DNA of 20,352 bases, from positions 1-20,352 of IMG/VR virus record IMGVR_UViG_3300025118_003626, one strand, 5' to 3'. The notes under the pieces were generated by a model, which was not told where the DNA came from, did no database searches, and saw only the letters and a list, made by a program, of their open reading frames with translations. This document shows, piece by piece, positions 3 to 17,233 of this stretch (the first letter of the stretch is position 1; each line of letters starts with the position of its first letter). Made by a program: the position numbers and the translations under genes. Origin of the DNA: a virus.

Positions 3-179
3 CGAGTAGCAGAAGGCGGTCGTATAGTAGGAGTAGAGGGAAGTATGAGAGCTGATTTGTTTGACCACGATGTCAACTCTGAATACGACTTCTCTGAAGA
101 TGATTGTCCAGTGTGTGAATTACCTGAGCACGCTCAAAATGAAGTTATCCACGATATAGAGCAAGAGGAAGATGCCTAA
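3..179 (+). CDS. C-terminal end of an unidentified acidic protein (5' truncated by window)
   Basis: This frame is open from the first complete codon to a TAA that overlaps the next gene's ATG by 8 bases. The visible tail is acidic (D/E-rich near the end) and contains a C-P-V-C pair followed by a histidine five residues later, which could bind metal but is too little to call. The third codon positions upstream of the first ATG (position 45) are nearly all A/T and most codons begin with G, as expected of a coding frame in this genome. I therefore read it as the end of a longer gene. The alternative is a 44-residue gene starting at ATG 45, which has GAGGG just upstream. Function not recognised; the position upstream of the tail gene suggests a virion or head-tail gene. 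Confidence 0.55.
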   Translation, partial: RVAEGGRIVGVEGSMRADLFDHDVNSEYDFSEDDCPVCELPEHAQNEVIHDIEQEEDA

Positions 180-3100
180 GCAAATCCACAATATACAACA
201 GTTTCATGGTGGATTAAATTCTAACTCAGACCCCCGTGATATTAATGATACTGAATTATCATCCGCCACTGATGTAATGGTAGATGAAATCGGTAAGATA
301 AGAACAATGGGTGGGACAACTGCTCATGATGCTAGTACTTCAACTGCTATACAGATTGAGCCTGGATATGGATTATTTAAGTGGAGCCACGATAGGCTTT
401 ATGGTCACTTAGGAGAGCATTTAGCTAATACTGGGGATTTTAGTTCTGCTTGGTCTGGAGCAGGTGATATGGCAGCAGATGCAACTGATGCTACATATAC
501 ACATAATACAGGTTCTGGTACATTAATTCAAACTGCCGCTAATAGAGCTGAGGTTGGCATAGCTAATAAAACATATATTTTTACATATACAATTAGTAAT
601 TGGACTAATGGGAATATTACGACTTTTAGAATAAAGGGGACAGGTTCCGAATTTGCAGCTGCTCATACAAATTTAGAACAATCTAATGGAACTCATTCTG
701 TTACATTTACTTCACATGCTTCAAACCCAGACCAGCGATTTACAATAGATGTTGTATCAGATGGAGCAGCTACATTTAATATTGATAATGTTTCACTCCG
801 ATTGTATGATGTTGCAGAGACTGGTGATGATTATTTAGTACTGGCAGATGATGAGTCTAGTGACCCTGCTATTTATATGTATAGTAAAAATGAAGATGAT
901 TGGAGTAATTCACAAGTAATTACACTTGGAAGCACTAGTAACCCAAAACCTTCTTTTTATTCTATTGATGGAGCTTTGAGAGTAAGTGATGGAAATTTTG
1001 GGAGTGAAAATCTCAATCAATGGTATGGATATATTGATAGAACTTTGTTTGAAGAATTAGAACCAAGCTACACAATTAATCAATGGTTTAACGCTCCTCA
1101 GAAAATTGAAAAACCTAATTCATGTTTTTATGATGATAATATAGAATTTGGCGATGTTTATGGTGATACAGTAACAACTGCTGGTAGCGATTCTGCATCA
1201 AGTGTATCACAAAGCTCTTTTTCAGGTCAGGACGAAATTATAACCGTTGCCGTCACTACAAGATCTTTTATCGCATCCCCATTTGAAACTATGGACGTGA
1301 ATTTAGTAGTTAGGGTTGGAACATACTCTGATGGTGCATTTGTAACTTACCAAGATATAACAATGTTAAATGGATGGTATATGGCTGGAACTTTATATAA
1401 CGTAGGTTTTGCATATTTTGATGCAGCTGATACAACTGTGGCTGTCGATTGGGGAGGAGATGCCGCAGCAGATACTTTTAGAGCAGAGATTATAACGAGT
1501 ACAAATATAGCTCAATCGGGTATAATACAAATGACAACATATGAAGCGGGGACTCCCCCATCTGATTTATCTGCTAGTTTGGCTAATAATAATGCTTTTG
1601 TAGAGTTTGATTGGGAAACTGATACTGGAGCTTCTGGTTGGTGTACCGCTGTTGCAAATTCTGGTAAGTGGGAAATAGGATTTTCATTTATTTATGATGA
1701 AGAGCAGGAAAGTCAGATTACAACAGCTACAGATGTATCAGGAGGAGCTGCAACTCTTAATGTGCCTGGAACAGACGCTACGACAGCTCCAAATATTCGT
1801 TTGTTTTTTGCAGATTGGAATAATGTGGAGAGCCCATGGAATAAAAGAATAACAGGGTGTAATATGTATATGAGAGATGTTGCTCAGACTTCTACACAGT
1901 CTTGGTTTTTACAAGTGTCAGTGGATTTTATCAAAGGGAAGGCTTTAGTTGCTACATCGCAAAAGGAATTTGATGCTATATATTATGCTGAATCTAATCA
2001 ACCTTATTATTATTTTCAGATAGGATCAACTACTGGGGTTGCTAATGGATGTGAAATGTTAGAACCTTCTTTAACTACTACTTATGAAGTAAAATCTGGT
2101 TTAGATGCAATAGAAAAGAGCGTTATTTCACAGTATAGAAGCGCTGTAGTGGTTGGTAGGAGAGTTTATGTTGGTGGTTTAATGGTTGAAAATGAAGATT
2201 CTTCAAAAGATATTATGGCAGATGCAATGATTAAGACTCCTGTTAATAAGTTTGATGTGTTTCCATTAAGCAGGATAATTGAAGCTTCTGTTAGAGATGG
2301 TGATGAGATAATAAAGCTTGAAGAATATGCAGATAGGATACTGCAGTTTAAAAAGAATAAGGTGCATATAATCAATGTATCACAAGAAATAGAATTTTTA
2401 GAGGATACGTTTATACATAAAGGAATATCTCATCCTGCTGCTGCTTGTAAGACTGATTTTGGAGTAGCTTGGGTGAATAGACTTGGTTGTTATTTATATG
2501 ATGGTCAAAAGGTAACTAACTTACTTGAAAAAGGTGGTAGACAGATAATAAAGGAAAGTGAATGGGATATATTTACTACTGATAATTCTATGATAGGATA
2601 TTTGCCTAAAAAGAGACAGTTGATTGTATCAAGAGATAACAGGAATACTTTTACACTCACTGGTTCAATAGACCCAGTCGATAGTACAGCTGTGCCTGGT
2701 ACTGGAACGAAATTTCTCACAGAGCTTTCCGTAGGAGATAGCATTACAGTTACTTCTACAACAAGAGTAATTGATTCAATTACAGATGATACTACAGCAA
2801 CGGTTAGTGCTGCTTGGGGTAGCGATTTAGCTAACGATACTTCTCCAGAATGTCTGCCATCAGGGGATATTTTTCTTTATGATATGGTAACACAGAGTTG
2901 GGTGAAGGGAGACAGTGCTCTTACAGATGGTGTATTGAAAACAAACTTTGTTACAGACTGGAATGGTGATTTAGTTTATGTACATACAACTGGAACTGTT
3001 CTTAAGTGGGATGATTCATCTGCTGCATCAACTACTTTTGAAATGATAACGAAAGATATTGATTTAGGACAGCCAGGACAGAGAAAGAAATTACATAAGG

Positions 3101-3390
3101 TTTATGTTACTTATAAAGGAGCTACAGCTACCAATGTAGATGTGTATTTTGATGTAGATGGAGGAACATCTTTAAATAAGACATTTGCTGATGGAACTAA
3201 TTTTAGTAGTAATGAGTTAGCTGCTTCGGCTTCATGGGCTGTAGCTGAATTGAAGCCAACTACGTCTGCTCAAGCAAATAATATTAAATCTTTTAGGTTA
3301 AAGTTTGTAGCTGAGGGTGGACAAGTTGTTCCATCTGATTTTGAAATTAATGATATTTCAGCAGTTTATAGATTAAAGAATGTAAAATAA
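172..3390 (+). CDS. Tail nozzle/stabilisation-like virion protein, 1072 aa
   Basis: Probably a structural protein of the tail or head-tail connection. Residues 11-48 follow the pattern F-x-GGLN-x-x-x-DPRDI..ELS.A.D.M.DEIG.IR, seen at the N-terminus of phage tail tube/nozzle-like and 'stabilisation' proteins. The central part (about 690-810) is beta-rich, with propeller-like strands such as DRILQFKKNKVHIINVS. The C-terminus near residues 954-985 has the K-D-I-D-L-G..G..KK..KVYV.YKG pattern common in phage tail proteins. Residues 86-212 look like an inserted galactose-binding/CBM_4_9-type jelly roll, with GDF near its start, an early W, and I-D-N-V-S-L at the end. Residues 826-882 hold a second insert (PGTGTKF...GDSI...TVSAAW). 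The start ATG overlaps the previous stop and has GAGG a few bases upstream. Family assignment comes from sequence patterns only; the exact tail role is inferred. Confidence 0.7.
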   Translation: MPKQIHNIQQFHGGLNSNSDPRDINDTELSSATDVMVDEIGKIRTMGGTTAHDASTSTAIQIEPGYGLFKWSHDRLYGHLGEHLANTGDFSSAWSGAGDMAADATDATYTHNTGSGTLIQTAANRAEVGIANKTYIFTYTISNWTNGNITTFRIKGTGSEFAAAHTNLEQSNGTHSVTFTSHASNPDQRFTIDVVSDGAATFNIDNVSLRLYDVAETGDDYLVLADDESSDPAIYMYSKNEDDWSNSQVITLGSTSNPKPSFYSIDGALRVSDGNFGSENLNQWYGYIDRTLFEELEPSYTINQWFNAPQKIEKPNSCFYDDNIEFGDVYGDTVTTAGSDSASSVSQSSFSGQDEIITVAVTTRSFIASPFETMDVNLVVRVGTYSDGAFVTYQDITMLNGWYMAGTLYNVGFAYFDAADTTVAVDWGGDAAADTFRAEIITSTNIAQSGIIQMTTYEAGTPPSDLSASLANNNAFVEFDWETDTGASGWCTAVANSGKWEIGFSFIYDEEQESQITTATDVSGGAATLNVPGTDATTAPNIRLFFADWNNVESPWNKRITGCNMYMRDVAQTSTQSWFLQVSVDFIKGKALVATSQKEFDAIYYAESNQPYYYFQIGSTTGVANGCEMLEPSLTTTYEVKSGLDAIEKSVISQYRSAVVVGRRVYVGGLMVENEDSSKDIMADAMIKTPVNKFDVFPLSRIIEASVRDGDEIIKLEEYADRILQFKKNKVHIINVSQEIEFLEDTFIHKGISHPAAACKTDFGVAWVNRLGCYLYDGQKVTNLLEKGGRQIIKESEWDIFTTDNSMIGYLPKKRQLIVSRDNRNTFTLTGSIDPVDSTAVPGTGTKFLTELSVGDSITVTSTTRVIDSITDDTTATVSAAWGSDLANDTSPECLPSGDIFLYDMVTQSWVKGDSALTDGVLKTNFVTDWNGDLVYVHTTGTVLKWDDSSAASTTFEMITKDIDLGQPGQRKKLHKVYVTYKGATATNVDVYFDVDGGTSLNKTFADGTNFSSNELAASASWAVAELKPTTSAQANNIKSFRLKFVAEGGQVVPSDFEINDISAVYRLKNVK
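427..807 (+). other. Carbohydrate-binding-like jelly-roll insert in the tail protein
   Basis: This covers residues 86-212 of the 1072-residue protein. The order of features is that of CBM_4_9/galactose-binding-like domains: an N-terminal G-D-F followed by W94, a middle Y-x-F-T-Y-T strand, a G-T-H-S-V-T-F-T strand, and a terminal F-N-I-D-N-V-S-L strand. Such domains in virion proteins often bind glycans. The ligand cannot be told from sequence, and the fold is inferred from the pattern. Confidence 0.5.
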
Positions 3391-3391
3391 T

Positions 3392-4801
3392 ATGGGAATG
3401 ACAAGAGCAGAACGGGTTGCGTTACATACTAATCAGAAACGTATTCAATTATCTGGTAATATGCCCAACGAGAAGTCTCTTGTAGAGGGGAAACCTCAGT
3501 ATAGAGAGACTTTTAAAGGATTATATCAGTATGTAAAGTATAATAACGAGGTATATTCTCAGTTACTTACTAAAGATACGAGAACTCTTCAAGAAGAAAT
3601 AAATGATACTGTAAATAATATAACAGTAAATGAAATTACGATTTCTGGAACATTAGATGTAAGTAGTGGAGGGACTGGTCTTGCAACTATAGCGGATGGA
3701 GCTGTAATGCTTGGTTCTGGGACTAGCGCTGTTACACCACTAGCGGTTACAACAAATGGAGCTATATTAATTGGGGATGGAACGACTGACCCAACAACTT
3801 ATAACGCTTTTAGTTCGTCAACTGGCACTTTAAATGTAGGTGCTGGAGGAACTGGACAAACAACAGTAACAGATTTTAAAAATGTTTTAGATGATGAGAC
3901 TTGGACTTTTGCTAATAATGTAACAGCTACTGGTCGAGCTATAGTAGACGATACTACTGATGCTACTAGTAAAACTGACGGTTCTTTACAAACCGATGGT
4001 GGTTTAAGTGTTGCTAAGGCAATATATAATGGGACAGCAGCTACTTTGGCTGCGGATTCTGGTGTTGTGACAATAGGTTCTACCACAGCTGCTACTTTTT
4101 CAGCTGCTGGTTTACTAAATGTAAATAATGCAACTGAGGCTACTTCTACTACTGATGGTTCTTTACAGACTGATGGGGGATTAAGCGTTGTTAAAGATGC
4201 AATATTCGGTAATGATGTAAAGTTGTTGACAGACGCATCTGTGTTTAGTATGGGTGTAGGTAGTGATTTTACTATTACACATGATAATAGTGATGGAGGT
4301 ACTATAGCAGGTAGGCCTGTTACTATTACTTCTGGTAGTGCTGCTACATGGTCTACTTCCGCTGGAAATCTTACTGTTGACGCAGCTGCTGCTGTGCTTG
4401 TACTTGACGGTCATACTGGTATAACATTAGATGCTTCTAATAGTGGTAATATTGAAATAAATGTTACTGCTGCTGATGATATATTAATTGGCAATGATGC
4501 TGTTGCTCAAGATATTTTAATAGGAAATGCAGCAGCAACTCAAGTAGATTTAACTGCTATTTTAGTTGATATAAATGGTGGATCAAGTGGTGTCACAATA
4601 GATGGTGATGTTAATATTAATAGTTATGCTCTTACAAATTCAGACCCATATACTGTTAGTATAAAACCTAATAACTCTACACAACATATGACAATGGGTT
4701 TAGCAGATAAACAGAATAATTATTCAATGTTAGGAATATTTTCAGCTGCTGCCGCTGCCATATCTGGAGTCTCTGCTGATGACTGGTCTTGGGACACTTA
4801 G
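3392..4801 (+). CDS. Tail fibre-like repeat protein, 469 aa
   Basis: Likely an extended, trimeric beta-structured fibre or adhesin-like virion protein. Residues 1-80 form a charged, probably alpha-helical head that may attach it to the tail. From about residue 85 the protein is very rich in G, T, S, A, N and D, with G-G-T-G and D-G-T-T-D-P modules typical of phage fibres. Two 26-residue copies sharing T-D-G-S-L-Q-T-D-G-G-L-S-V occur at 189-214 and 248-273, 59 residues apart. Residues about 330-410 read as short beta-helix rungs (I-L-I-G-N-D-A, D-I-L-I-G-N-A). The stop is TAG. The start lies 2 bases after the previous gene's TAA; no clear Shine-Dalgarno sequence is visible, and an in-frame ATG two codons later is an equally possible start. 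Role inferred from composition, repeats and position. Confidence 0.65.
   Translation: MGMTRAERVALHTNQKRIQLSGNMPNEKSLVEGKPQYRETFKGLYQYVKYNNEVYSQLLTKDTRTLQEEINDTVNNITVNEITISGTLDVSSGGTGLATIADGAVMLGSGTSAVTPLAVTTNGAILIGDGTTDPTTYNAFSSSTGTLNVGAGGTGQTTVTDFKNVLDDETWTFANNVTATGRAIVDDTTDATSKTDGSLQTDGGLSVAKAIYNGTAATLAADSGVVTIGSTTAATFSAAGLLNVNNATEATSTTDGSLQTDGGLSVVKDAIFGNDVKLLTDASVFSMGVGSDFTITHDNSDGGTIAGRPVTITSGSAATWSTSAGNLTVDAAAAVLVLDGHTGITLDASNSGNIEINVTAADDILIGNDAVAQDILIGNAAATQVDLTAILVDINGGSSGVTIDGDVNINSYALTNSDPYTVSIKPNNSTQHMTMGLADKQNNYSMLGIFSAAAAAISGVSADDWSWDT
3956..4210 (+). repeat. Two imperfect 78-bp direct repeats inside the fibre-like gene
   Basis: Copies lie at 3956-4033 and 4133-4210, offset by 177 bases (59 codons). 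They encode near-identical segments around TDGSLQTDGGLSV. Differences are mostly third-position or conservative, so the protein repeat is being kept. This looks like a fibre shaft module rather than a mobile repeat. Confidence 0.75.
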
Positions 4802-6674: not shown

Positions 6675-7448
6675 ATGGCTACAATAGCAAATAATCATTT
6701 TTCAGAACTTGCACAGAAAGGCAGATATGGAGATACTGAAATACTTCATTTCTCTGGAGGCGAGCGTGCTCATGGTAATATAAAAGAGAAAGCTCTGATT
6801 AGTATGTATGGTCAGCAAGGTGAACGAATGGTGAAAGCTGCAGGAGCTGGGTCGACTAATCCATCTACTGGTTTACCAGAATATTTTGATCCTGTAACAG
6901 CAACTATAGCTGTTGGTAGTTTGGTGGTTGGAGCTATAGGTGGAGCAACGTCGGGAGCTGCTGCAGAAACACAAGCAAGATACGACCAAGAGGCCGCCCA
7001 ACAGGGATTGGAAGAGTTAGATAGAACTGAAGGTCTTCTTGAAAAAGGATATGTGTCAAAGAAAGCTGGGGCTCAACAAGATTATAGACAGAATGTAGAA
7101 AGTGTTTCAGCGCAAACTGGTATAGCCCAGGAAGATTTAGCACAACAAACTAGCGAAGCTATTCAAAAAACTGGAATGTCTACTAGTGGGACTGTTGGTC
7201 GGAAAAGTTCTCAAATGTGGAATAGAATACAAAGTTCGTTTGAAAAAGGTCGTCAAGGTTTAATAGGTGATCTTGGAAAAAAGATGGGAGCTATAGAAGG
7301 TTGGTATGAAGGCGAAAAGGCAAGAATATCAAGTGAGAGACTGAAATTTCAAAGACAGAAAGATTTAGCTAAGGAACAAGAAGATGCTTGGTATCTTGGA
7401 AAAAACGCTGGAAAAATTTGGGAGGGAGTAAAGAAATATGGCATATGA
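6675..7448 (+). CDS. Internal (ejected) virion-like protein with one membrane segment, 257 aa
   Basis: Likely a podophage-type internal virion or DNA-ejection protein, comparable in size and position to T7 gp14-like proteins. Residues 19-30 (G-D-T-E-I-L-H-F-S-G-G-E) and 62-70 (N-P-S-T-G-L-P-E-Y) follow the 'GDT..AH..PGE ... NP.TGLPEF' pattern that recurs in many phage internal proteins. Directly after it, residues 73-96 are a glycine/alanine-rich hydrophobic segment able to cross or perturb a membrane. The remainder (100-257) is helical, polar and charged, with a basic C-terminus. The last 11 bases overlap the next gene, showing tight coupling. The match is to a remembered sequence pattern; function is inferred from the family and context. 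Confidence 0.68.
   Translation: MATIANNHFSELAQKGRYGDTEILHFSGGERAHGNIKEKALISMYGQQGERMVKAAGAGSTNPSTGLPEYFDPVTATIAVGSLVVGAIGGATSGAAAETQARYDQEAAQQGLEELDRTEGLLEKGYVSKKAGAQQDYRQNVESVSAQTGIAQEDLAQQTSEAIQKTGMSTSGTVGRKSSQMWNRIQSSFEKGRQGLIGDLGKKMGAIEGWYEGEKARISSERLKFQRQKDLAKEQEDAWYLGKNAGKIWEGVKKYGI
7420..7428 (+). promoter_or_regulatory. Shine-Dalgarno for the 392-aa gene
   Basis: A G-rich GGGAGGGAG stretch ends 9 bases before ATG 7438. It lies within the end of the upstream coding region and is one of only a few clear ribosome binding sites on the plus strand here. Confidence 0.65.
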
Positions 7449-8616
7449 ATCAGGAGATGTAATAAGGTCAGTAAGAGCAATACTACAAGAAAGTCGTGAG
7501 TCTCGAGAGTTTGATGTTGCGACTGCACTTCAAATGATGCAGATAGCTTCAGCTCAAAAAGCTCAAAAGATGGAGATGGCTGAATCTCAATTAAAAAGGC
7601 TTGAGATTACTAATCTTCAGATGAGTCATTTACAGGCTAATGATTTTATAACTTTAACAGGCTTTAATCGTTGGTATAACCCTGAGGATGATGAAGGGTG
7701 GGCTTCAACTATGGTAGATGATTTAACTGATTCCCCAGATATGGAAGATGGTGTTAACACTGGTGGTTTTGGATTTAATGAACATGATGCATGGAGAATA
7801 GCTGGAGCTGTTCAGTCGTTTTATTTAAAAGAACCCGGAGCTATATTAGAAATTGCTAGTGAGTTATCTTCTAAAGCTGATACAGGAGTGCAGGATTCTT
7901 TTGTTAAAGGATTTTATAATACAGGTATATTTTCTGAAACAAAAAGGGAAATTACTTATCAGCAATTAGCTAATATAGATAAAACTATATTAAATAGGGA
8001 TATGATAGCTCAGGAAAGTTATGAGTTTGGAACGGGTGACTTTGATATATCAAGAGATATTAGTATGGCTGAAAGAGTTACTATGCCTACAGGAGATGAA
8101 AAAGATGACCTTACTTTAGCTGTTAATGCTGCCACTCAAGGTGCTTTTAGTAGTGAAATTCAAGGATTAATTAATTCGATTGATACTGATAAATCAACTG
8201 AACTACAGTTAAGGAATAAGTTAAAAAATTTGAGTGTAGAAATTTCAGCAGCTAAAGCTAAAAATAGAGTAGGTTTAGATTTAACACCTACTCAAGAAAG
8301 TTTATTACAAGATGAATTTGAAGCTATAGGATTAGTTGAAGATGAAATAAGAGATTTAAATATTTCAATACAGGAAAAGAGAGGTAAAGCTGAAGAATTA
8401 GTAAGTCTTAATAGAGAAGAAGCAATAAGAACGGGACAAATAGAGATGGCTCCTTCAATCACACATTTCGGTATAGACCCTTTACAAAAAGCTGGTCTTT
8501 GGTTGAGAAGTGGTGTTTGGCCAGATGATGAATTACTTAAAGTTGCTGAAGAAATTGCAGCTGAAAAGTTATCTGGCCCGTGGGAACAGTTAAAAGAAGC
8601 AGCAAAAAAACTATAA
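7438..8616 (+). CDS. Unknown coiled-coil virion-module protein, 392 aa
   Basis: Family not recognised. Residues about 28-65 form a long Met/Gln/Ala/Lys-rich helix. Residues about 229-330 contain heptad-like leucine and isoleucine spacing, compatible with a coiled coil. The C-terminal 45 residues form another amphipathic helical region rich in E, A, K and L. There is no signal peptide or clear membrane segment. Placement between the ejection-like 257-residue protein and the giant protein, with an 11-base overlap upstream and 13 bases downstream, suggests it is part of the same internal core or ejection assembly. Inference from context only. The start is supported by a good GGGAGGGAG site. Confidence 0.68.
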   Translation: MAYESGDVIRSVRAILQESRESREFDVATALQMMQIASAQKAQKMEMAESQLKRLEITNLQMSHLQANDFITLTGFNRWYNPEDDEGWASTMVDDLTDSPDMEDGVNTGGFGFNEHDAWRIAGAVQSFYLKEPGAILEIASELSSKADTGVQDSFVKGFYNTGIFSETKREITYQQLANIDKTILNRDMIAQESYEFGTGDFDISRDISMAERVTMPTGDEKDDLTLAVNAATQGAFSSEIQGLINSIDTDKSTELQLRNKLKNLSVEISAAKAKNRVGLDLTPTQESLLQDEFEAIGLVEDEIRDLNISIQEKRGKAEELVSLNREEAIRTGQIEMAPSITHFGIDPLQKAGLWLRSGVWPDDELLKVAEEIAAEKLSGPWEQLKEAAKKL

Positions 8617-8629
8617 ATATAATATTACA

Positions 8630-11600
8630 GTGCCTATTGATAATTTAACTCGAGATTTTTTGAAAGAGTTAGACGAGAGGTCTTCTCTAACAATTGCGAC
8701 TACATCACCTATGGCTCCAACTCCGGGAGTACAAAAAACAGGTGAGTCTCTTTGGTCTTCACTTGCTGAAGGCGAGGAGCCTGAATGGTTAATGACCCCA
8801 GAAAAAAAATCAGGAGCTTTACATTTTGCTGGTGCCGCTCTTTGGCATGCTTTCGATGTAGGATTATTAGGATTACCTGGAATAGCATTAGGTGAAGAAG
8901 CTCCTTATCAATGGGATGAATTAGGAGGAGGTGCTAAAGCAGGTGCTGTAATAGGAGAAGCTGCTGGATTCTTAGCTCCACTAGGATTAATAGGTAAGGC
9001 AACATCTAAAGGAGTAGCTGCTGTATCAAAGTATGGGACTAAAGCCGCTACTAAGAGGGCATCTGGAGCTGCTAAGGCTCTTGCAGTAGATAGAAAACTT
9101 GAAGATGCTGGTAAGATTGGTAGTACTGTTGGTAAAGTATTCGCTACAAAAGCTGCTAAAGAGCAGATACCTCTATATGAAATAAGTACTTCTACTATTG
9201 CAGGAGCTCAAAAAGAAATGGGTGGTTTAATAAGAGGAGCCTTAAAGGATAGGTTTCCTACTATTGCAGATGATTTAGTTGAAGATATAACGCAAGCTTC
9301 ATTAAAAGGATTATCTCAAAAGGGAGTCCATGTTAATAGTATAGGTAGATGGGTAGAGAGAGCTTTAAATACAAAATTTAGTATAGCAGATCAAAGTGCA
9401 ATAACTTCATATATTGGTAGAGCCGCTGAGTTAACTGCTAGTTTTTCAATATATAACCTTATTGATGATGGTATTAAGTCAATGGCAGTTGAAGGTCATG
9501 AGTTTGATCCAGTAACTGATGTTGGACAAGCTTTAATGTTCTCAGCTTTCTTACCGGCAGTAGAAGCTTTCCCCGGTGGTGGCAGGTTAAAATTCTTTAA
9601 GACTCGTAAAGATGTAAAGTCTGGTCTTAATAAGATTAAGACAATGGATTATGATGACTTAGATATTAATGAGGTCAATGCTTTATTTAAGATACTATCA
9701 AACAATAATAGATTAAAATATTCAAGCTTTGCTGTCGAAGCAAGTAAAAGAGTTGGTAATGCGTTTGTAAAAGGTGAAGAAAAAGAAGCAGCCTTACATT
9801 TAAAATCTTTATTCAGCAATTTTAACCCTGATAAAGTTTATAGTGAAATGTATAAAAAATTCGGAATGGATTTAATTCAGTCAGTCCCAAGAATGACAAT
9901 AGGAGCTGCTTATTTTAATGCATCTACACTTCTTGACGCAAACATGTTAAGGAATGTTGATCCTGAAGTATTAGGAGCCCACTTATTAGTTGGAGCTTTA
10001 TTCACAAGAAGATATAAACCTATTGTGAAAGAGAAGTTTCCAACATTAAATAACTTTGATAGAAAAGTAGAGTTTCTAAGAACCCTTGGGTTTGAAGGGG
10101 AACAGATAAAATATCTTGGGGAAGCATATGGATTAAGAGCAGACTTAGGTCATGCATATATGGGTCTTCTTAATCATCCTGTAATGAGACAGATTAATGA
10201 ATCTATTAATACTAGTGAAAATAAAAAACAAAGCGTAGAGGGTAAAGATGGTGTTGGTAAATTAAATAGTGATGTTCATTCATTAATACAACAAGTACAT
10301 AACCTATATGTTTTATCAGAAAACTCAAGAAAAGTTGGACTTGAAGATGCCAGTGTTGAACCTGATGTTAGGCTTAATAGATTAACAGATAGGCAGTTAG
10401 AAATACTTGACAAAAACCTGAGAAAGATAGAGATATCTGATGGTGAGTTTTTAAATGAACAGAATATGGCTGATTTTAGGGAGAATGTATTTAATAACGA
10501 TCAAGCCAATGGCATATATCAGAATTATATGAAAACTGTTCTTAACTCGTTAGGAGACTTACATGTTAAGACTGATTATATGGAAACTGCAGACCCATTT
10601 GATATAACAAAATCAATAGGTGTTGCAAAAGTAAAAGGATTAAAAGGTACTGATGGTGATGCTAATTTTGATCCTATAAGACAGTTGCATATGATAGTTA
10701 ACCAACTTGAATCACTTGGCTTTGTGCATGAAATAACTTTGACAGCCGAAGAAACGAAGATGGCTAGTGATATAGATTCAAAAAGAATGGGGCCTAAAAT
10801 ACAAAGGCATCTTGAATCACTAACAAAAAAGATTGTAGAAGACAATTATGAGCCAGGTACTGTACTAGATTTACTCCCAGAATCAAACCAATTCCTTAAT
10901 GTTCTTAAAAATTACAAGAGAGAACGATCATTAAATGCATTGTATAACTTTGTTGAAGGCAGGACTAATAAGTTAACTGAATCAGACAGATCTATTTATA
11001 ATGATATATTATTATTGATTCCTGAAGGCTTTAAATATAATGGAATGAAAATGCCTGAGGGTATGGACACTAAAAAGTGGCAGAAGATAATTACAGAAGG
11101 TGATTTCTTAGAAGTTGATAATGCTGCTAGAGCTTTATCAGAAATATTAAATATAAGTAGCCGTGGTGAAGTAAAAGAATTACAAGAATTAGACTATAAT
11201 GAAGTGAAAGCTGTAGTAAATAATCTTAAAAAGAGTGGGTTTAAGATTGATGTAGATATGTCCAGAACCTTTGAAAACTTCTATTATAAGAGACTTCTCA
11301 GTTCAATGAATATTGGGGCTAAGCAAATAGCTATTGTTGAGAATGGTTTAGCTCACAATGCGTTTAGAATGGAAGAAAAGAATGGTAAAAGAATTTTAGT
11401 TGTTCAAGACAGAAGGTCTGTTGAAAGAACATTGTCTAAAGACATGTCGAAAGAAGAACTAAAAGATGAAATGAAAAAGTATGATGCTATTCTAAGTGAA
11501 CTAAGGGCTATTAACGGTGCTTTTATAAGAGTTGAATCAGAGATGCCAATATCTGACACTGCATCTGCTGACTTACATAGCTTTATTTATGAGACACATA

Positions 11601-14600
11601 CTATTACTTCAAAGTTTGATAAGGATGTACCCGGTGAATACAGAAAAGTTAAGAAGGATAATAATGATAGGGTTGAAGTTATAGAATCTGTTGATAATGT
11701 AATGACAGACCTTTTCGATGTTACTGACCCAATTAATCCTGTAGCTAAGAAGCTAACTGTTGATGAAGTTAATGAGTTACTTGATTCATTACAAAAAGTT
11801 AAGACAGAATCAGAAAATAATATGTCTCCTGAAATGTTACAAATGGTAGACCAGTTAATACAAAAGTTAAGTCTTAAAAATGTTGGTGAAGATGGCATGA
11901 TGTCTGCTCACGGAGATCAGTTGCTAGCGTTGCAACGATCATTAACTCCAGAGTATAAAAGAATAAACTATATAAATGAAACTATCTCAAAAATTATATT
12001 TGGATACCAAAACTATGCTAGCGACAAGATACGAGGTAGAAAAAGACTTGACGCGTTAGTTGCTGACTTATCAGTGCAGTTAAAAAAAGGTGGTATTGAA
12101 GTAACTGATTCTGATAATCTTAGTCAGATGGTGAGTAAATATTTTAATAGTGGTCTCAGCCTTGATCAGAAAATTAAAAAGGGAATTACATTATCACTTG
12201 AAGATTTTGCAAGAGAACTAAACAATCATGTTGATGCTTGGAATAGTGTATTATCTGATGCTGAGTATTTTAATGGCGTAAAGATGTGGAGAGATTACTA
12301 TGGTGATAGTTCTTTAAAAGATAAGAATGTCGATATATTTGCAAAGTCTGGTAAAGAAATAAATAGACTATCTGAGCACAATAGTTATTTTAAGTCTGAA
12401 GAATTTTTAGGAGTCAAAGAAGATTTAAAACTTTCACTTATAGCAGAAAAAGGACATGAAGACCCACAGACTACAAGGTTTTGGATTGATAGAATACTTG
12501 AAGAAGCTGAAAGTGCATATAAAATGATGCATAGTGATTCTCCAGAACAAGCTGTAAAAGAATTTGATAATTTTAAACATTCTGTTATAAAAGAACTATT
12601 GTTTGCATCTGCTGGTTCACATACAGCTAGGTCTGTAAAGTTGCAATACGGTGAAACAGTAGATGGGAAACCTACTTATTTATTAACTGAATCCAAGATG
12701 GTTACATCTAGCACTGGTGTATCAGAATTACTTAGAGAGTTTGAAGAAGCTGGTGTATATGTTGCTTTGGCTGAAAGTGAAGGCATAATTCTTGGTGATA
12801 ACGGTAGAACTACAGCAGTAAGTAATATATTTGCAATACCAGACGTTGATGTAAAGTATTTTAATAATGCTAAACTTCAAGCGACAAAACAGTCAGCTAA
12901 AGAGAGACAAGAAAAAGAAGTAATTAGACCTATAGGGCCTGCGGTAATAAGGATTCCTATAAGTTTTAATACACAGTTGATTATTGATAGTAGAGGAGTA
13001 GGAAATGCTAAAGAAGTTATTACATCATGGTATAATGATAAGCTATCAAAATTAGAAGCAGGTAGAGAAGAAGGTATAATAAGCAAAGAAATTATAGATA
13101 ACTTTAAATCATTATTTAGTGTTATAGAAAAAGAAGGTGAATTAAATCCATCTCAATTAGAAGTGTTCGTTAGTTCAATGTACTGGGATAAGATGAACAG
13201 CGCAGCATTTAATAGACTAATGAAAACTCCAACAACTGGTAGTGAAATAAATCCTACAATGACTAACTTATTTAAGTATCTTAGTCTTGGTGAAGGGGTT
13301 GGTGCTAAAATAGCTGGAAATGAAACTGCTTTAAGGGCTATAAGAAGAGCGAATGAAATTGGTAAATATGCTGGAGAGTTGTTAACAACAGAACAATTAG
13401 GTGTTATTGATTATTATATAGATAAAGGGAAACTTGAAATTGTATCTATTCAAGATGAAGCAGGTCATTTTGAATCACTTGCAATGGTTGAAGCTCAGTT
13501 AACAGAATTAGCTAAGAATAATAATATAAAAGCTGATGCAAATTTCACTAGAGATATGGCTAAAAATATAATGAGGAGCCTAAAAGGTAAATCAGCTGTT
13601 GACGCTGCAACTTATGTTGGTACGAATATGTGGCATCTATCTCTATTGCAGGAAGGAAGGGAGGCTGGCGATGGTTCTGGTGGTGTAAAACAGTCTGTTG
13701 CTTATAATGATGGTATAAATACTGTCCTTTTAAAACAAAACTTTACATATGATCCTAATATTGCAGCTATTATGGATGGTCTTGGTATAGATATTTTAAC
13801 ATTTAATAGTGCAGCTAAAGAATATTCAAAAGAACAAGTTGTTCCCAGAGATAATTGGGCGGGAGAATCAGTACCATTATTTTTTAGTAGGTCTCTTGGC
13901 ACAAATGCTAATAAGCTGAGGACTGATGGGAAAGTACAAGATATAAAAATAGAGAATATTATGTTTGTTAAATCAGAAGATAGACATGCTGTTACAAATA
14001 TTACATATGCATTAGATGAGTATTTAAATAGTATTGGGCATGAACAGTTTATGAAAGAATATGCTGATTATGATGGAGTGACTTCTGCTGGTGATGCATT
14101 AATAAAAGGTGTTGTGAGTCGTGGTAGTCAGAGATTAGGTATATCTGATTTTATTCTTAATACATTAGCTGAGGAAGGAGCTATAATTGATGGTTCGACT
14201 AATGCGTTTGTAAAAGTTATGGTTACTGCTGGTATAGACCCTAAGTCTGAGCTCGTAAAAGATGATGTTAATAGAATTGTTTATAGGACTATTGTTAATA
14301 GAGTAAGAAAACCTCAAACAAAAGGTGGTTCGTATTCTACAATGATACCATTCCTAGAAGGTTCAATGCCTGTATATAGCAGCTCTGGTAACCAAGTTAG
14401 ATTTGGAGGGAAGAAGCTTTCATATGCTGACAGTAATATACGCATTGAGAACATGGATAAACTTCAATATATAGTTGATATTGGAGGTAGAGAGGTTCTT
14501 ATTGGAAAGGACGCAAGTGGTGACTGGGCTACTTCTAATATAGGAAAAAAGGAGTTCACTGCTGACGAAAGATTAATATTAAATGATAAGATGAGTACTC

Positions 14601-17233
14601 TTAATATGATAAGCAAGAGTAAGGGTTTAAAATTAGGTGTATTACATCATATGCTTAAGCCAAAAGATATATGGTTAGAGTCTTTAAGTTTAAGGATGCC
14701 TAACTTAGCTGCCGACGTTGCTGTTCATAAAGTTGAGGGATTCTATTCGTTTGAGATGGGCAATGTTGTTGGTATAAATGTTCTTGATTTAGCTACAAAA
14801 CATCAAGGCGATTTTGATGCTGATATGGCTTTTAGTTATCACGATACAAAATATGAAATAACTGATGCAGTAGCTAGTCTTGCACCAAGAAGAATGGATG
14901 CATATGTGTATGAGCCAACAGATTTCGACTTTAAAGATATTTTTAGTAATGGTGAAACTTTAAAACCAGTTGGTAGCGTTACAAATCCTATAAAGAGAAT
15001 GGATGAGCATGTAGTAAACTATAATATTGCTAAGAATCATTTCGGACAGATAAAACGGTTGTCAGCAGGTATTAATTCATTAAATAGAATTAATATGAAT
15101 ATGTTTGATAAAAATATGTTAAAACTTGAAGGGGAAACGTTCAATGCATATTTACAGAGATATGCAAACACTCTTCAAAGTTTAATTGATACTACAAAGA
15201 GAGCTAACCTTACTAATAAGTCAACAGTTAATGAGTTAAAGAGATATATATTATTTGGTGATAAGCCTAAAAATCATGACATAAAATCGGTTGATTATAA
15301 TGAAGATGGGTACAAGCCATTATTTGATTTAGAAAAGTATAAAGATTATGAGAAAGATGTTTATAAAGATGCTATAATAGAAATGATTGATGCTCTTGGA
15401 AGACCTTCTCGTGTTATGAGTGATCTATTTGATGGTTCAGGTAGAAGGATACCAGACCAAAATGATTTAGTAAGGATGAGACAAGAGATGGATCAGATTG
15501 CATTTAACCCTAACCAGTTTATCTTTAATAGACTTATCCGTAGATATAAAAAGGGTGACTCTAAGCGAGATGCTTTATTAAAGATATTCTATGATAAAGG
15601 GGCAAATGAAACAACTAATGTTTTAAGACAAAGAATATTAGATGGAAAGTTTAAAACAAAAGTAATGGTAGAGAGAACACCATTCAGTTTCTTAGGTGAG
15701 TATAAAATTAGACAAGGAGAGTTGTATGATTCCACTCCAGCAGGATATGCTCTAAAGAGAATAGGTAATGTTAAAAATACATATGATAGAACAGCTCAGA
15801 AGTATGGCATAGAGACAAAAGAATTAGCAAAGAGTATTAGTGTTGTTGAAAACTTCATTGCTCTATCTAATGCTGAGACGCATGAGCAAATAATGGAAGC
15901 ATTAGAAGAAGCTGACGGAGAAGGTCAACTTACATTTGGTCTTACTGGTGGACAATATGAAACAAAAATATCAGACTTAGCATATGCTCAGAAGTATTCA
16001 GTTGCATATGCATTAATTGGTAAGAATGCTGCTAGTATACGACAATCATTACGAAGAAATAGTAAAGGTAGCACATCTATTTATTTAGCTCAAAAGCTTC
16101 AGCGGTTAAATGCTATTATGGAACATATGAGAAAGAAAGAAGATGGTTTAATTGGTACACTATTAGATGGAAAAGCCGGTAAAGATATATTAGACCATTT
16201 TCAATTTCAAGAGTTTAAGATAAGTAAGTCTAAGTATATACCAAATCAGACTGGCAACAGAAATTATTTATATAGAGAGACAAGTGTTAAAGGAAAGTGG
16301 GAGAAAGTCACAGAGATAAGACCTAAGTCAACACAATGGGTAACCCCCGGTAGATATTTAGTTCTAAAGAATCCATTAAGATACGATGCAGCAAGTAAGT
16401 CTGAAACTATTGACGCATACTCATTATTGAGTGTTTTTGGTGACATTCAGGCGAATAATATTAGAGGATTTTCTGGAGAGGCTGTACAAGAGACTCTTTT
16501 TATTGATGCTGCGAGAAGATTAAAAGCTCAAATAAGTGCATTGTCTAGTGAAACATATAGAATAAGCGAAGGTCACCCGGCAGCAGTTGAGAACTGGGGT
16601 TTATTAAAGGATGCTGAAAATAGGCTTGTTGATGCTTTTATGAAGCAACATATACCAGACTCTGAGTTTTCTGAACCGTTGACATCTCAACAAGAATTAA
16701 ATACAATACATGATATTATTGGTTATATGATGAAGCCAGACCCTGCATTTGGTACCGTTACATATATACGGGATAGAAATGTTGCATTGCCGTCATTTAA
16801 AATAAATAAAAGAGTATCAAAAGCTATGTTAAGGTGGTTAGTGGATAATGGGTATGAAGAACTGTATCAAGATATTGTTATGAAGTATGGATCAACATTT
16901 AGGCGTAGGTATGATAATGTACCTGACTTAGAATATACATCTATGTATTCAGATGGTATACACAGAGAAAGGAACACACCGTTTGAAGGTAAGTCTGAGG
17001 TATATAATATGATTGCTGAGACTAATCCTGACTTTTTATATACACCAGCTATCTCAGAAGTATTGAAGAATGAAATGACATTCAGAAGTGCTAAGACAAG
17101 AAAGGTTCGTGACCCTAATGGAGATATTTATAGTATATTAAGGTTTGGTAAGTATGATGATATTGAAGTTGGCTTAGATGTATTTGCTGACCCTAAATCA
17201 AAAGAATCAACAACTAACTTGGAGTGCTACTAA
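8630..17233 (+). CDS. Giant virion protein, candidate packaged double-barrel RNA polymerase, 2867 aa
   Basis: Proposed to be carried in the virion, injected with the DNA, and to transcribe early phage genes. Residues 62-88 and 100-122 are Gly/Ala-rich hydrophobic segments like those of ejection proteins; more hydrophobic helices lie near 295-315 and 445-460. Much of 500-1800 is helical, charged and unrecognised. Residues 1894-1901 (K-P-Q-T-K-G-G-S) may belong to a first barrel. R2022-M-P2024 followed by D2061-F-D2063-A-D2065 (bases 14693-14824) reproduces the layout of the catalytic second double-psi beta-barrel of multisubunit-type RNA polymerases (E. coli beta-prime R425 and D460/D462/D464, motif NADFDGD). 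crAss-like virion polymerases carry a comparable D-F-D-x-D motif in one giant chain. About 800 residues follow. The start is GTG with no Shine-Dalgarno sequence; the frame has a stop at 8591-8593 and no ATG in between. The polymerase call rests on motifs only; the remaining regions could be unrelated ejection domains. Confidence 0.72.
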   Translation: MPIDNLTRDFLKELDERSSLTIATTSPMAPTPGVQKTGESLWSSLAEGEEPEWLMTPEKKSGALHFAGAALWHAFDVGLLGLPGIALGEEAPYQWDELGGGAKAGAVIGEAAGFLAPLGLIGKATSKGVAAVSKYGTKAATKRASGAAKALAVDRKLEDAGKIGSTVGKVFATKAAKEQIPLYEISTSTIAGAQKEMGGLIRGALKDRFPTIADDLVEDITQASLKGLSQKGVHVNSIGRWVERALNTKFSIADQSAITSYIGRAAELTASFSIYNLIDDGIKSMAVEGHEFDPVTDVGQALMFSAFLPAVEAFPGGGRLKFFKTRKDVKSGLNKIKTMDYDDLDINEVNALFKILSNNNRLKYSSFAVEASKRVGNAFVKGEEKEAALHLKSLFSNFNPDKVYSEMYKKFGMDLIQSVPRMTIGAAYFNASTLLDANMLRNVDPEVLGAHLLVGALFTRRYKPIVKEKFPTLNNFDRKVEFLRTLGFEGEQIKYLGEAYGLRADLGHAYMGLLNHPVMRQINESINTSENKKQSVEGKDGVGKLNSDVHSLIQQVHNLYVLSENSRKVGLEDASVEPDVRLNRLTDRQLEILDKNLRKIEISDGEFLNEQNMADFRENVFNNDQANGIYQNYMKTVLNSLGDLHVKTDYMETADPFDITKSIGVAKVKGLKGTDGDANFDPIRQLHMIVNQLESLGFVHEITLTAEETKMASDIDSKRMGPKIQRHLESLTKKIVEDNYEPGTVLDLLPESNQFLNVLKNYKRERSLNALYNFVEGRTNKLTESDRSIYNDILLLIPEGFKYNGMKMPEGMDTKKWQKIITEGDFLEVDNAARALSEILNISSRGEVKELQELDYNEVKAVVNNLKKSGFKIDVDMSRTFENFYYKRLLSSMNIGAKQIAIVENGLAHNAFRMEEKNGKRILVVQDRRSVERTLSKDMSKEELKDEMKKYDAILSELRAINGAFIRVESEMPISDTASADLHSFIYETHTITSKFDKDVPGEYRKVKKDNNDRVEVIESVDNVMTDLFDVTDPINPVAKKLTVDEVNELLDSLQKVKTESENNMSPEMLQMVDQLIQKLSLKNVGEDGMMSAHGDQLLALQRSLTPEYKRINYINETISKIIFGYQNYASDKIRGRKRLDALVADLSVQLKKGGIEVTDSDNLSQMVSKYFNSGLSLDQKIKKGITLSLEDFARELNNHVDAWNSVLSDAEYFNGVKMWRDYYGDSSLKDKNVDIFAKSGKEINRLSEHNSYFKSEEFLGVKEDLKLSLIAEKGHEDPQTTRFWIDRILEEAESAYKMMHSDSPEQAVKEFDNFKHSVIKELLFASAGSHTARSVKLQYGETVDGKPTYLLTESKMVTSSTGVSELLREFEEAGVYVALAESEGIILGDNGRTTAVSNIFAIPDVDVKYFNNAKLQATKQSAKERQEKEVIRPIGPAVIRIPISFNTQLIIDSRGVGNAKEVITSWYNDKLSKLEAGREEGIISKEIIDNFKSLFSVIEKEGELNPSQLEVFVSSMYWDKMNSAAFNRLMKTPTTGSEINPTMTNLFKYLSLGEGVGAKIAGNETALRAIRRANEIGKYAGELLTTEQLGVIDYYIDKGKLEIVSIQDEAGHFESLAMVEAQLTELAKNNNIKADANFTRDMAKNIMRSLKGKSAVDAATYVGTNMWHLSLLQEGREAGDGSGGVKQSVAYNDGINTVLLKQNFTYDPNIAAIMDGLGIDILTFNSAAKEYSKEQVVPRDNWAGESVPLFFSRSLGTNANKLRTDGKVQDIKIENIMFVKSEDRHAVTNITYALDEYLNSIGHEQFMKEYADYDGVTSAGDALIKGVVSRGSQRLGISDFILNTLAEEGAIIDGSTNAFVKVMVTAGIDPKSELVKDDVNRIVYRTIVNRVRKPQTKGGSYSTMIPFLEGSMPVYSSSGNQVRFGGKKLSYADSNIRIENMDKLQYIVDIGGREVLIGKDASGDWATSNIGKKEFTADERLILNDKMSTLNMISKSKGLKLGVLHHMLKPKDIWLESLSLRMPNLAADVAVHKVEGFYSFEMGNVVGINVLDLATKHQGDFDADMAFSYHDTKYEITDAVASLAPRRMDAYVYEPTDFDFKDIFSNGETLKPVGSVTNPIKRMDEHVVNYNIAKNHFGQIKRLSAGINSLNRINMNMFDKNMLKLEGETFNAYLQRYANTLQSLIDTTKRANLTNKSTVNELKRYILFGDKPKNHDIKSVDYNEDGYKPLFDLEKYKDYEKDVYKDAIIEMIDALGRPSRVMSDLFDGSGRRIPDQNDLVRMRQEMDQIAFNPNQFIFNRLIRRYKKGDSKRDALLKIFYDKGANETTNVLRQRILDGKFKTKVMVERTPFSFLGEYKIRQGELYDSTPAGYALKRIGNVKNTYDRTAQKYGIETKELAKSISVVENFIALSNAETHEQIMEALEEADGEGQLTFGLTGGQYETKISDLAYAQKYSVAYALIGKNAASIRQSLRRNSKGSTSIYLAQKLQRLNAIMEHMRKKEDGLIGTLLDGKAGKDILDHFQFQEFKISKSKYIPNQTGNRNYLYRETSVKGKWEKVTEIRPKSTQWVTPGRYLVLKNPLRYDAASKSETIDAYSLLSVFGDIQANNIRGFSGEAVQETLFIDAARRLKAQISALSSETYRISEGHPAAVENWGLLKDAENRLVDAFMKQHIPDSEFSEPLTSQQELNTIHDIIGYMMKPDPAFGTVTYIRDRNVALPSFKINKRVSKAMLRWLVDNGYEELYQDIVMKYGSTFRRRYDNVPDLEYTSMYSDGIHRERNTPFEGKSEVYNMIAETNPDFLYTPAISEVLKNEMTFRSAKTRKVRDPNGDIYSILRFGKYDDIEVGLDVFADPKSKESTTNLECY
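14309..14332 (+). other. Possible first-barrel Lys/Gly-Gly motif in the giant protein
   Basis: Residues 1894-1901 read K-P-Q-T-K-G-G-S, followed by Y-S-T-M-I-P. Two lysines next to a glycine pair resemble the first double-psi barrel of single-chain polymerases, where conserved lysines contact the nucleic acid or NTP. The order (first barrel upstream of the acidic barrel) fits. Weak on its own. Confidence 0.35.
14693..14824 (+). other. RNA polymerase-like catalytic barrel motif (R-x-P ... D-F-D-A-D)
   Basis: This covers residues 2022-2065. R-M-P-N-L starts the segment; alternating hydrophobic strands (V-A-V-H-K-V-E-G-F and N-V-V-G-I-N-V) follow, and G-D-F-D-A-D-M-A-F ends it. Arg to first Asp is 39 residues, against 35 in E. 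coli beta-prime. The three aspartates would bind the catalytic magnesium. The usual glycine of DFDGD is alanine here; variation at this position is known in phage polymerases. Confidence 0.68.
17221..17224 (+). promoter_or_regulatory. Shine-Dalgarno deciding the start of the 896-aa gene
   Basis: GGAG lies 8 bases before ATG 17233. That spacing favours this ATG over the in-frame GTG at 17224, which would have no room for a ribosome binding site. Confidence 0.6.

Follow-up and report, generated by a model that had tools for sequence, protein, structure and literature searches.

The window, by which we mean the whole stretch of DNA analysed here, is the complete 20,352-base virus fragment of IMG/VR record IMGVR_UViG_3300025118_003626, and it derives from an uncultured phage. 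It carries eight genes, all on the + strand, and a search of the window for tRNA genes yielded none. The following genes and gene regions are discussed here:

172..3390, + strand: large protein in the late-type operon shared with the giant gene, its upstream position kept in relatives
6675-7448 and 7438-8616, + strand: two cysteine-free proteins of 257 and 392 aa, candidate ejection or channel proteins, directly upstream of the giant gene
8630..17233, + strand: giant protein (GTG start, 2867 aa), predicted two-barrel virion RNA polymerase with long N- and C-terminal extensions
13370..15829, + strand: polymerase core of the giant (residues 1581-2400), counterpart of the modelled and fold-matched region in the relative L027
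17233..19923, + strand: partner protein of ~896 aa, whose ATG at 17233 overlaps the TGA of the giant gene (the list of open reading frames gives a GTG at 17224)

The giant gene sits in an operon of structural (tail/ejection) type in all contigs, and the ~900-aa partner adjoins it in every contig that reaches that far. Judged by position only, the product of 172..3390 is likely a tail component. The 257-aa protein has a weak match to the PHROG 'DNA ejection' (E 3e-4), and the versions in relatives have no such match; identification of this product as a DNA-ejection protein, based on a single weak match that is not reproduced in relatives, was rejected. The partner protein, at 18-22% identity to distant members and with no match to any family, did not match phi14:2 gp076 or gp078 when compared with them, and is possibly a polymerase accessory subunit. 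Two further observations concern neighbouring genes in relatives. A small gene in the ejection-protein region of one contig (L014:6348-7268) contains NYFAENVLVHN, which by eye resembles a C-terminal motif of Hint/intein type, and the end of an ORF in another (L002:1-588) is similar, again by eye, to a tail-fibre intramolecular chaperone of S74 type.

Catalytic signature and relatives of the giant protein

A preliminary description of this DNA had noted, in the 2867-aa ORF at 8630-17233, an R2022-x-P2024 element followed by D2061-F-D2063-A-D2065, with 39 residues from the arginine to the first aspartate, and all of these were found at those positions. The residues of interest in the two double-psi barrels are:

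13601..13603, + strand: D1658, where the beta-like barrel (DPBB-B) region starts, from the alignment and a weak hhalign match to the crAss 'TDAQ' segment (a second match, non-significant alone)
13688..13690, + strand: K1687, conserved lysine in a predicted DPBB-B strand, from the alignment and model
13733..13735, + strand: K1702, conserved, candidate first catalytic lysine of DPBB-B, from inspection against crAss K-x3-F
13817..13819, + strand: K1730 in I-D-[MI]-[VL]-x-F-x-S-A-x-K, a candidate for the second catalytic lysine in DPBB-B, opposite the crAss IDxVxFxSxxKxG segment in the alignment
14693..14701, + strand: R2022-M-P2024, R-x-P element of DPBB-A, from conservation and the crAss-like comparison
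14810..14824, + strand: D2061-F-D2063-A-D2065, predicted Mg-binding triad of DPBB-A, from conservation and the profile match

The same giant gene is present in 20 further contigs, giving a family of 21 contigs after duplicate removal, in which the giants measure 2.9-3.05 kaa. Direct search recovered two close relatives (80% and 61% identity) and alignments led to four distant ones (~19% identity), while a DNA pattern written for N-Y-W-W-D-T-P, a conserved string that follows the triad, matched 18 stretches, 18/18 of them true relatives. Motif matches in L005 and L006 were due to chance, as were all 22 additional viral matches to the pattern DxDKxNYW. Among cellular genomes, no relative turned up in the A3 scan, and the three matches to the NYWWDTP pattern were all by chance. 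As a single sequence, the giant had only chance matches in phage records, Pfam, PHROGs and the PDB; by sequence comparison, the family is absent from Pfam and PHROGs.

In an alignment of 20 relatives (15-81% identity to the query row), 14 of the 820 core positions are invariant, and these include all three aspartates; the R and P of R-x-P hardly vary there, and not at all in the 21-sequence alignment. The most remote members, at 17-19% identity to the window clade, keep the triad and R-x-P wherever the region is covered, and the DPBB-B lysines K1687, K1702 and K1730 are conserved alongside them in relatives. Position 1658 is Asp in the window clade and most relatives and Asn in the L037/L046 group. 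The preliminary description had made its polymerase reading depend on conservation of the aspartates in homologues, and they are present in all relatives. Their context is D-[FYH]-D-[AVILY]-D, so that A, V, I, L or Y always takes the place of the usual Gly; such variable residues around the triad are expected if selection acts on the aspartates.

The same motif could be read as a structural, EF-hand-like calcium-binding loop in a large tail or ejection protein that is no polymerase, since the conserved D2061, D2063, D2065 and D2072 would occupy loop positions 1, 3, 5 and 12. Position 6 of an EF-hand loop is nearly always Gly. Here, however, it is Met or Lys in all relatives, and position 8 has no conserved hydrophobic residue; moreover, R-x-P and the DPBB-B lysines are conserved together with the triad, and the profile and fold matches described below are RNA polymerases. 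As the Gly expected at position 6 and the hydrophobic residue expected at position 8 are both missing, the EF-hand reading was rejected, and we regard it as exceedingly unlikely.

Predicted fold and comparison with known polymerases

When AF2 was run on seven sequences with the window protein as query, pLDDT was 35. A model of the 820-residue core with L027 as query, built from 20 family sequences only and with no templates, reached a pLDDT of 75.2 and a pTM of 0.77. The model itself is that of L027, which is ~16% identical to the window core, and the fold is carried over to the window protein by profile comparison. With this core, the best PDB match in Foldseek was 6VR4 (E 4.8e-9), with QDE-1 and RDR2 next; RNA polymerases make up 50/50 of the top matches, and the fold matches are all two-barrel enzymes. 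The Foldseek TM-scores are low, about 0.3, owing to poor whole-length superposition. VIA-align of the L027 core gave Z 14.6 for QDE-1 (441 residues, 5.6 A), 14.2 for RDR2, 11.7 for P74 gp62, 11.4 for P23-45 gp64, 10.5 for 6VR4 (544 residues, 4.4 A) and 9.6 for P23-45 gp96. The fold comparison that the preliminary description had proposed has thus matched a confident L027 core model to crAss-like, QDE-1 and RDR2 polymerases, and the core of the giant almost certainly adopts the two-barrel polymerase fold predicted by this model. A search of BFVD (predicted viral structures) with the core model returned as its best two A0A516L9L2 and A0A516M3R5, both unnamed (E 7e-49, with a quoted identity of 26%, and E 5e-29); these very strong matches indicate that more deposited members exist. 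After them came many crAss-like proteins, some of which are annotated as helicases.

Comparison by hhalign with the single sequences of phi14:2 gp66 and P23-45 gp96 and gp64 gave no significant match, and a crAss profile was therefore built from 14 crAss-type polymerases, namely that of phi14:2 and thirteen others including Flavobacterium phage Fpv1. All thirteen further enzymes, that of Fpv1 included, contain RxP and DxD[IV]D. Against this profile, the match of the family to crAss-like virion polymerases was significant (score 74.4, E 4.2e-7, 299 columns) in a comparison of the kind proposed in the preliminary description, and the controls were null (18.1 for the reversed profile and 20.4 for the best of 40 column shuffles). 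The aligned block spans I-D-x-V-x-F-x-S-x-x-K (K1730), R-x-P and D-x-D-x-D. The window clade alone, which is too small, gave a non-significant match to the crAss polymerases (E 0.015); this clade matches the remaining family with a score of 144.6 (E 2.7e-16, 780 columns). A search of the giant for the T7-type polymerase family PF00940 gave no match, and the control was likewise without any match.

Like the window giant, phi14:2 gp66 (= Phi14:2_gp077, the chain of PDB 6VR4, the best PDB fold match of the family core) is a giant single chain that holds both barrels. Its R1322-I-P and D1361-F-D-I-D-K are separated by the same R-to-D spacing of 39, and it shares with the window family the non-Gly triad, the IDxVxFxSxxK segment and terminal cysteines that face neighbouring proteins. 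However, the two giants are only ~10% identical, have no BLAST-level similarity and carry differing long extensions, and phi14:2 has two partner proteins whereas the window family has one. The Ala in place of Gly in the triad, pointed out at the outset, is indeed present but is no special feature, as the motif reads DFDID in phi14:2 and DFDVD or DFDID in other crAss-like phages; since crAss-like members also lack it, the Gly of DxDGD is no membership criterion for the crAss-like branch. Likewise, the suggestion that the giant is larger than the crAss-like polymerase does not extend to all known ones, the proteins of CrAssphage LMMB and Fpv1 having 4070 and 4401 aa. The Fpv1 'structural protein' ANB40275 (L100:10369-23574), with RTP and DYDIDK, is by sequence similarity a crAss-type polymerase in a phage that is non-Crassvirales by NCBI taxonomy; it can be aligned to crAss-like polymerases by tblastn (E 6e-22), whereas the window family cannot. 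The records of three crAss-like polymerase giants (L079, L080 and L081) label them 'hypothetical protein', 'DNA helicase' or 'exonuclease V'.

Other polymerases resemble the family in part. QDE-1 and RDR2, which have the highest VIA-align Z, show the same barrel order, DPBB-B then DPBB-A, but are eukaryotic RNA-interference enzymes and not virion proteins, unlike the reading proposed for the window family. Their triad has the canonical Gly. P23-45 gp96, a virion RNA polymerase fused to the tape measure, is likewise a polymerase within a giant virion protein; gp96 and gp64, however, have DFDGD and DYDGD and no cysteines and belong to a long-tailed phage, while the window family has no triad Gly. 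N4 gp50 (Schitoviridae) is a ~3500-aa ejected polymerase of a podovirus, with zero cysteines and a gene that adjoins ejection-protein genes. It is of T7 type and not a two-barrel enzyme.

One could suppose that the polymerase fold is catalytically dead and that the giant's sole role is structural or, as an ejection protein, to escort the DNA, given that the Gly of DxDGD is replaced, that long non-polymerase extensions are present and that activity of the giant is a prediction. Such a protein would not be expected to keep its triad invariant at 15-19% identity while neighbouring residues vary, and the phi14:2 polymerase, reported to be active (review PMC10136315), also lacks this Gly (DFDID). 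A dead enzyme therefore seems improbable to us, and the sequence conservation suggests that the giant is very likely an active enzyme.

We propose that the polymerase would be packaged in the capsid, ejected along with the phage DNA, and would then transcribe early genes without the host RNA polymerase. Precedents exist: gp47, gp49 and gp50 of crAss001 were detected in virions by mass spectrometry (PMC10172136), gp076-078 are entered in the phi14:2 record as structural proteins on MS/MS evidence, and P23-45 gp96 is a polymerase protein carried as virion cargo (PMC10770324). As packaging of the giant is deduced, it might instead be made after infection, in the manner of P23-45 gp64, a non-virion two-barrel enzyme of similar fold. 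We consider this very improbable in view of the size of the giants, of their place in a tail/ejection-type operon in all contigs, where a late operon would be a poor location for the gene of an early enzyme, and of the virion proteins related to them (PMC10172136). Gene position, homology and size thus make packaging and ejection of the giant highly probable. Supported by the fold model, the significant crAss-like profile match and the conservation of the aspartates, the double-barrel polymerase reading of the preliminary description stands, and with good confidence we take the giant to be a DNA-dependent RNA polymerase with both barrels in one chain, of the crAss-like virion type, which would be packaged and ejected.

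The window has no TerL, portal or MCP gene, and packaging genes were read on one relative contig, G001 (44.6 kb). The closest matches of its TerL are those of cobaviruses, ICP2 and other podoviruses (24-26% identity), Pfam identifies a P22-type portal and an SU10-type MCP, and its terminase, portal and capsid genes found no match by tblastn in 74 kb of phi14:2 (26-100 kb). The packaging genes of this single contig, from a set of fragmentary contigs, suggest that the phages of the family are podovirus-like and outside Crassvirales. Placement outside the crAss-like phages is likely, as judged from genome fragments. A 111-kb contig (G007, containing L042) carries two terminases and two P22-type portals ~60 kb apart with a single giant gene, and is possibly two joined phage genomes.

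Cysteines at the giant-partner junction

Two residues at the junction of the giant and partner genes are considered here:

17225..17227, + strand: C2866, the sole cysteine of the giant and second-last of its 2867 residues
17239..17241, + strand: the sole cysteine of the partner protein, in its N-terminal M-A-C

The base composition of the window giant predicts ~87 cysteines, and it contains one. All complete giant ends (20/20) have exactly one cysteine, as the last or second-last residue, and all partner N-termini checked have exactly one, within the first seven residues. This pair, an unexpected feature that the preliminary description had overlooked, is kept across three deep clades at 17-19% identity. 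Other genes on the same contigs have ordinary cysteine content, and the presumed ejection-type proteins have none or few.

All the polymerase-gene junctions that were checked, in Crassvirales and in Fpv1, have the same arrangement. In phi14:2, C1797 of gp078 (its last residue and only cysteine) faces C3 of gp077, the polymerase, whose only other cysteine, C2179 of 2180, faces C3 of gp076, again the only one in that protein. In crAss001, C2339 of Gp47 (of 2341 residues) faces C5 of the polymerase Gp50, and C2404 of Gp50 (of 2412) faces C5 of Gp49; Gp47 and Gp49 have no other cysteine, Gp50 has one internal cysteine in addition, and the Gp47 gene lies on the opposite strand. The polymerases of cr111_1, cr126_1, DAC15 and cr7_1 have a cysteine within the last three residues, with that of the next protein at position 3-4, and have internal cysteines as well, so a cysteine-free interior is not universal among gut crAss-like polymerases. 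In CrAssphage LMMB the polymerase is fused with one subunit, and the single remaining junction carries the cysteine pair; in Fpv1 the sole cysteine is at 4400 of 4401 and the next protein begins MAC. Cysteines are absent from N4 gp50-52 and from P23-45 gp96, neither of which is a split polymerase complex of the crAss-like kind.

Were the proteins threaded one behind the other, their cysteine-bearing ends would meet, and a disulfide that links each protein to its neighbour, making one string, is the most economical reading. Inside the virion, the C-terminus of the giant would be joined to the N-terminus of the partner by a disulfide; the linked chains would pass unfolded through the narrow tail, one after the other; and reduction in the host cytoplasm would free them to fold and assemble there. 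Internal cysteines would be avoided so that no other bond could jam an unfolded chain. The crAss001 virion study proposed that cargo is partly unfolded when it is ejected (PMC10172136).

Alternatively, the terminal cysteines could serve another purpose, such as portal or tail anchoring, metal binding or a packaging signal. The evidence for chaining consists of sequence position, and crAss001 tail proteins form disulfides with other partners, the disulfides reported in these virions being only in tail and portal-vertex proteins (PMC10172136). Another role would leave unexplained that the cysteines occur only on ends facing each other in gene order, that their count fits the junctions (in phi14:2, the first protein has one at the C-end only, the middle protein at both ends and the last at the N-end only), and that N4 gp50-52 and P23-45 gp96 have none. 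We therefore consider another role possible but rather doubtful. We favour, with moderate confidence, the reading in which polymerase subunits and companion cargo of crAss-like phages and the new family may be chained head to tail by disulfides from a C-terminal to the next N-terminal cysteine. With similar confidence, the chained cargo would behave as a single protein string, run through the tail in a set order and come apart in the reducing environment of the cytoplasm. No description of terminal cysteines in cargo emerged from a search of the literature outside subscription journals, one of which carries the phi14:2 polymerase paper, and an earlier mention is possible.

These results add to the virion polymerases an undescribed branch in environmental phages that neither Pfam nor PHROG models cover, and they make it likely that the crAss-like enzyme type extends beyond crAss-like phages. 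The channel out of a phage capsid is too narrow for folded proteins. The terminal-cysteine rule would offer a simple and testable answer to how several very large proteins may nevertheless leave the capsid in order, together, and before the DNA.
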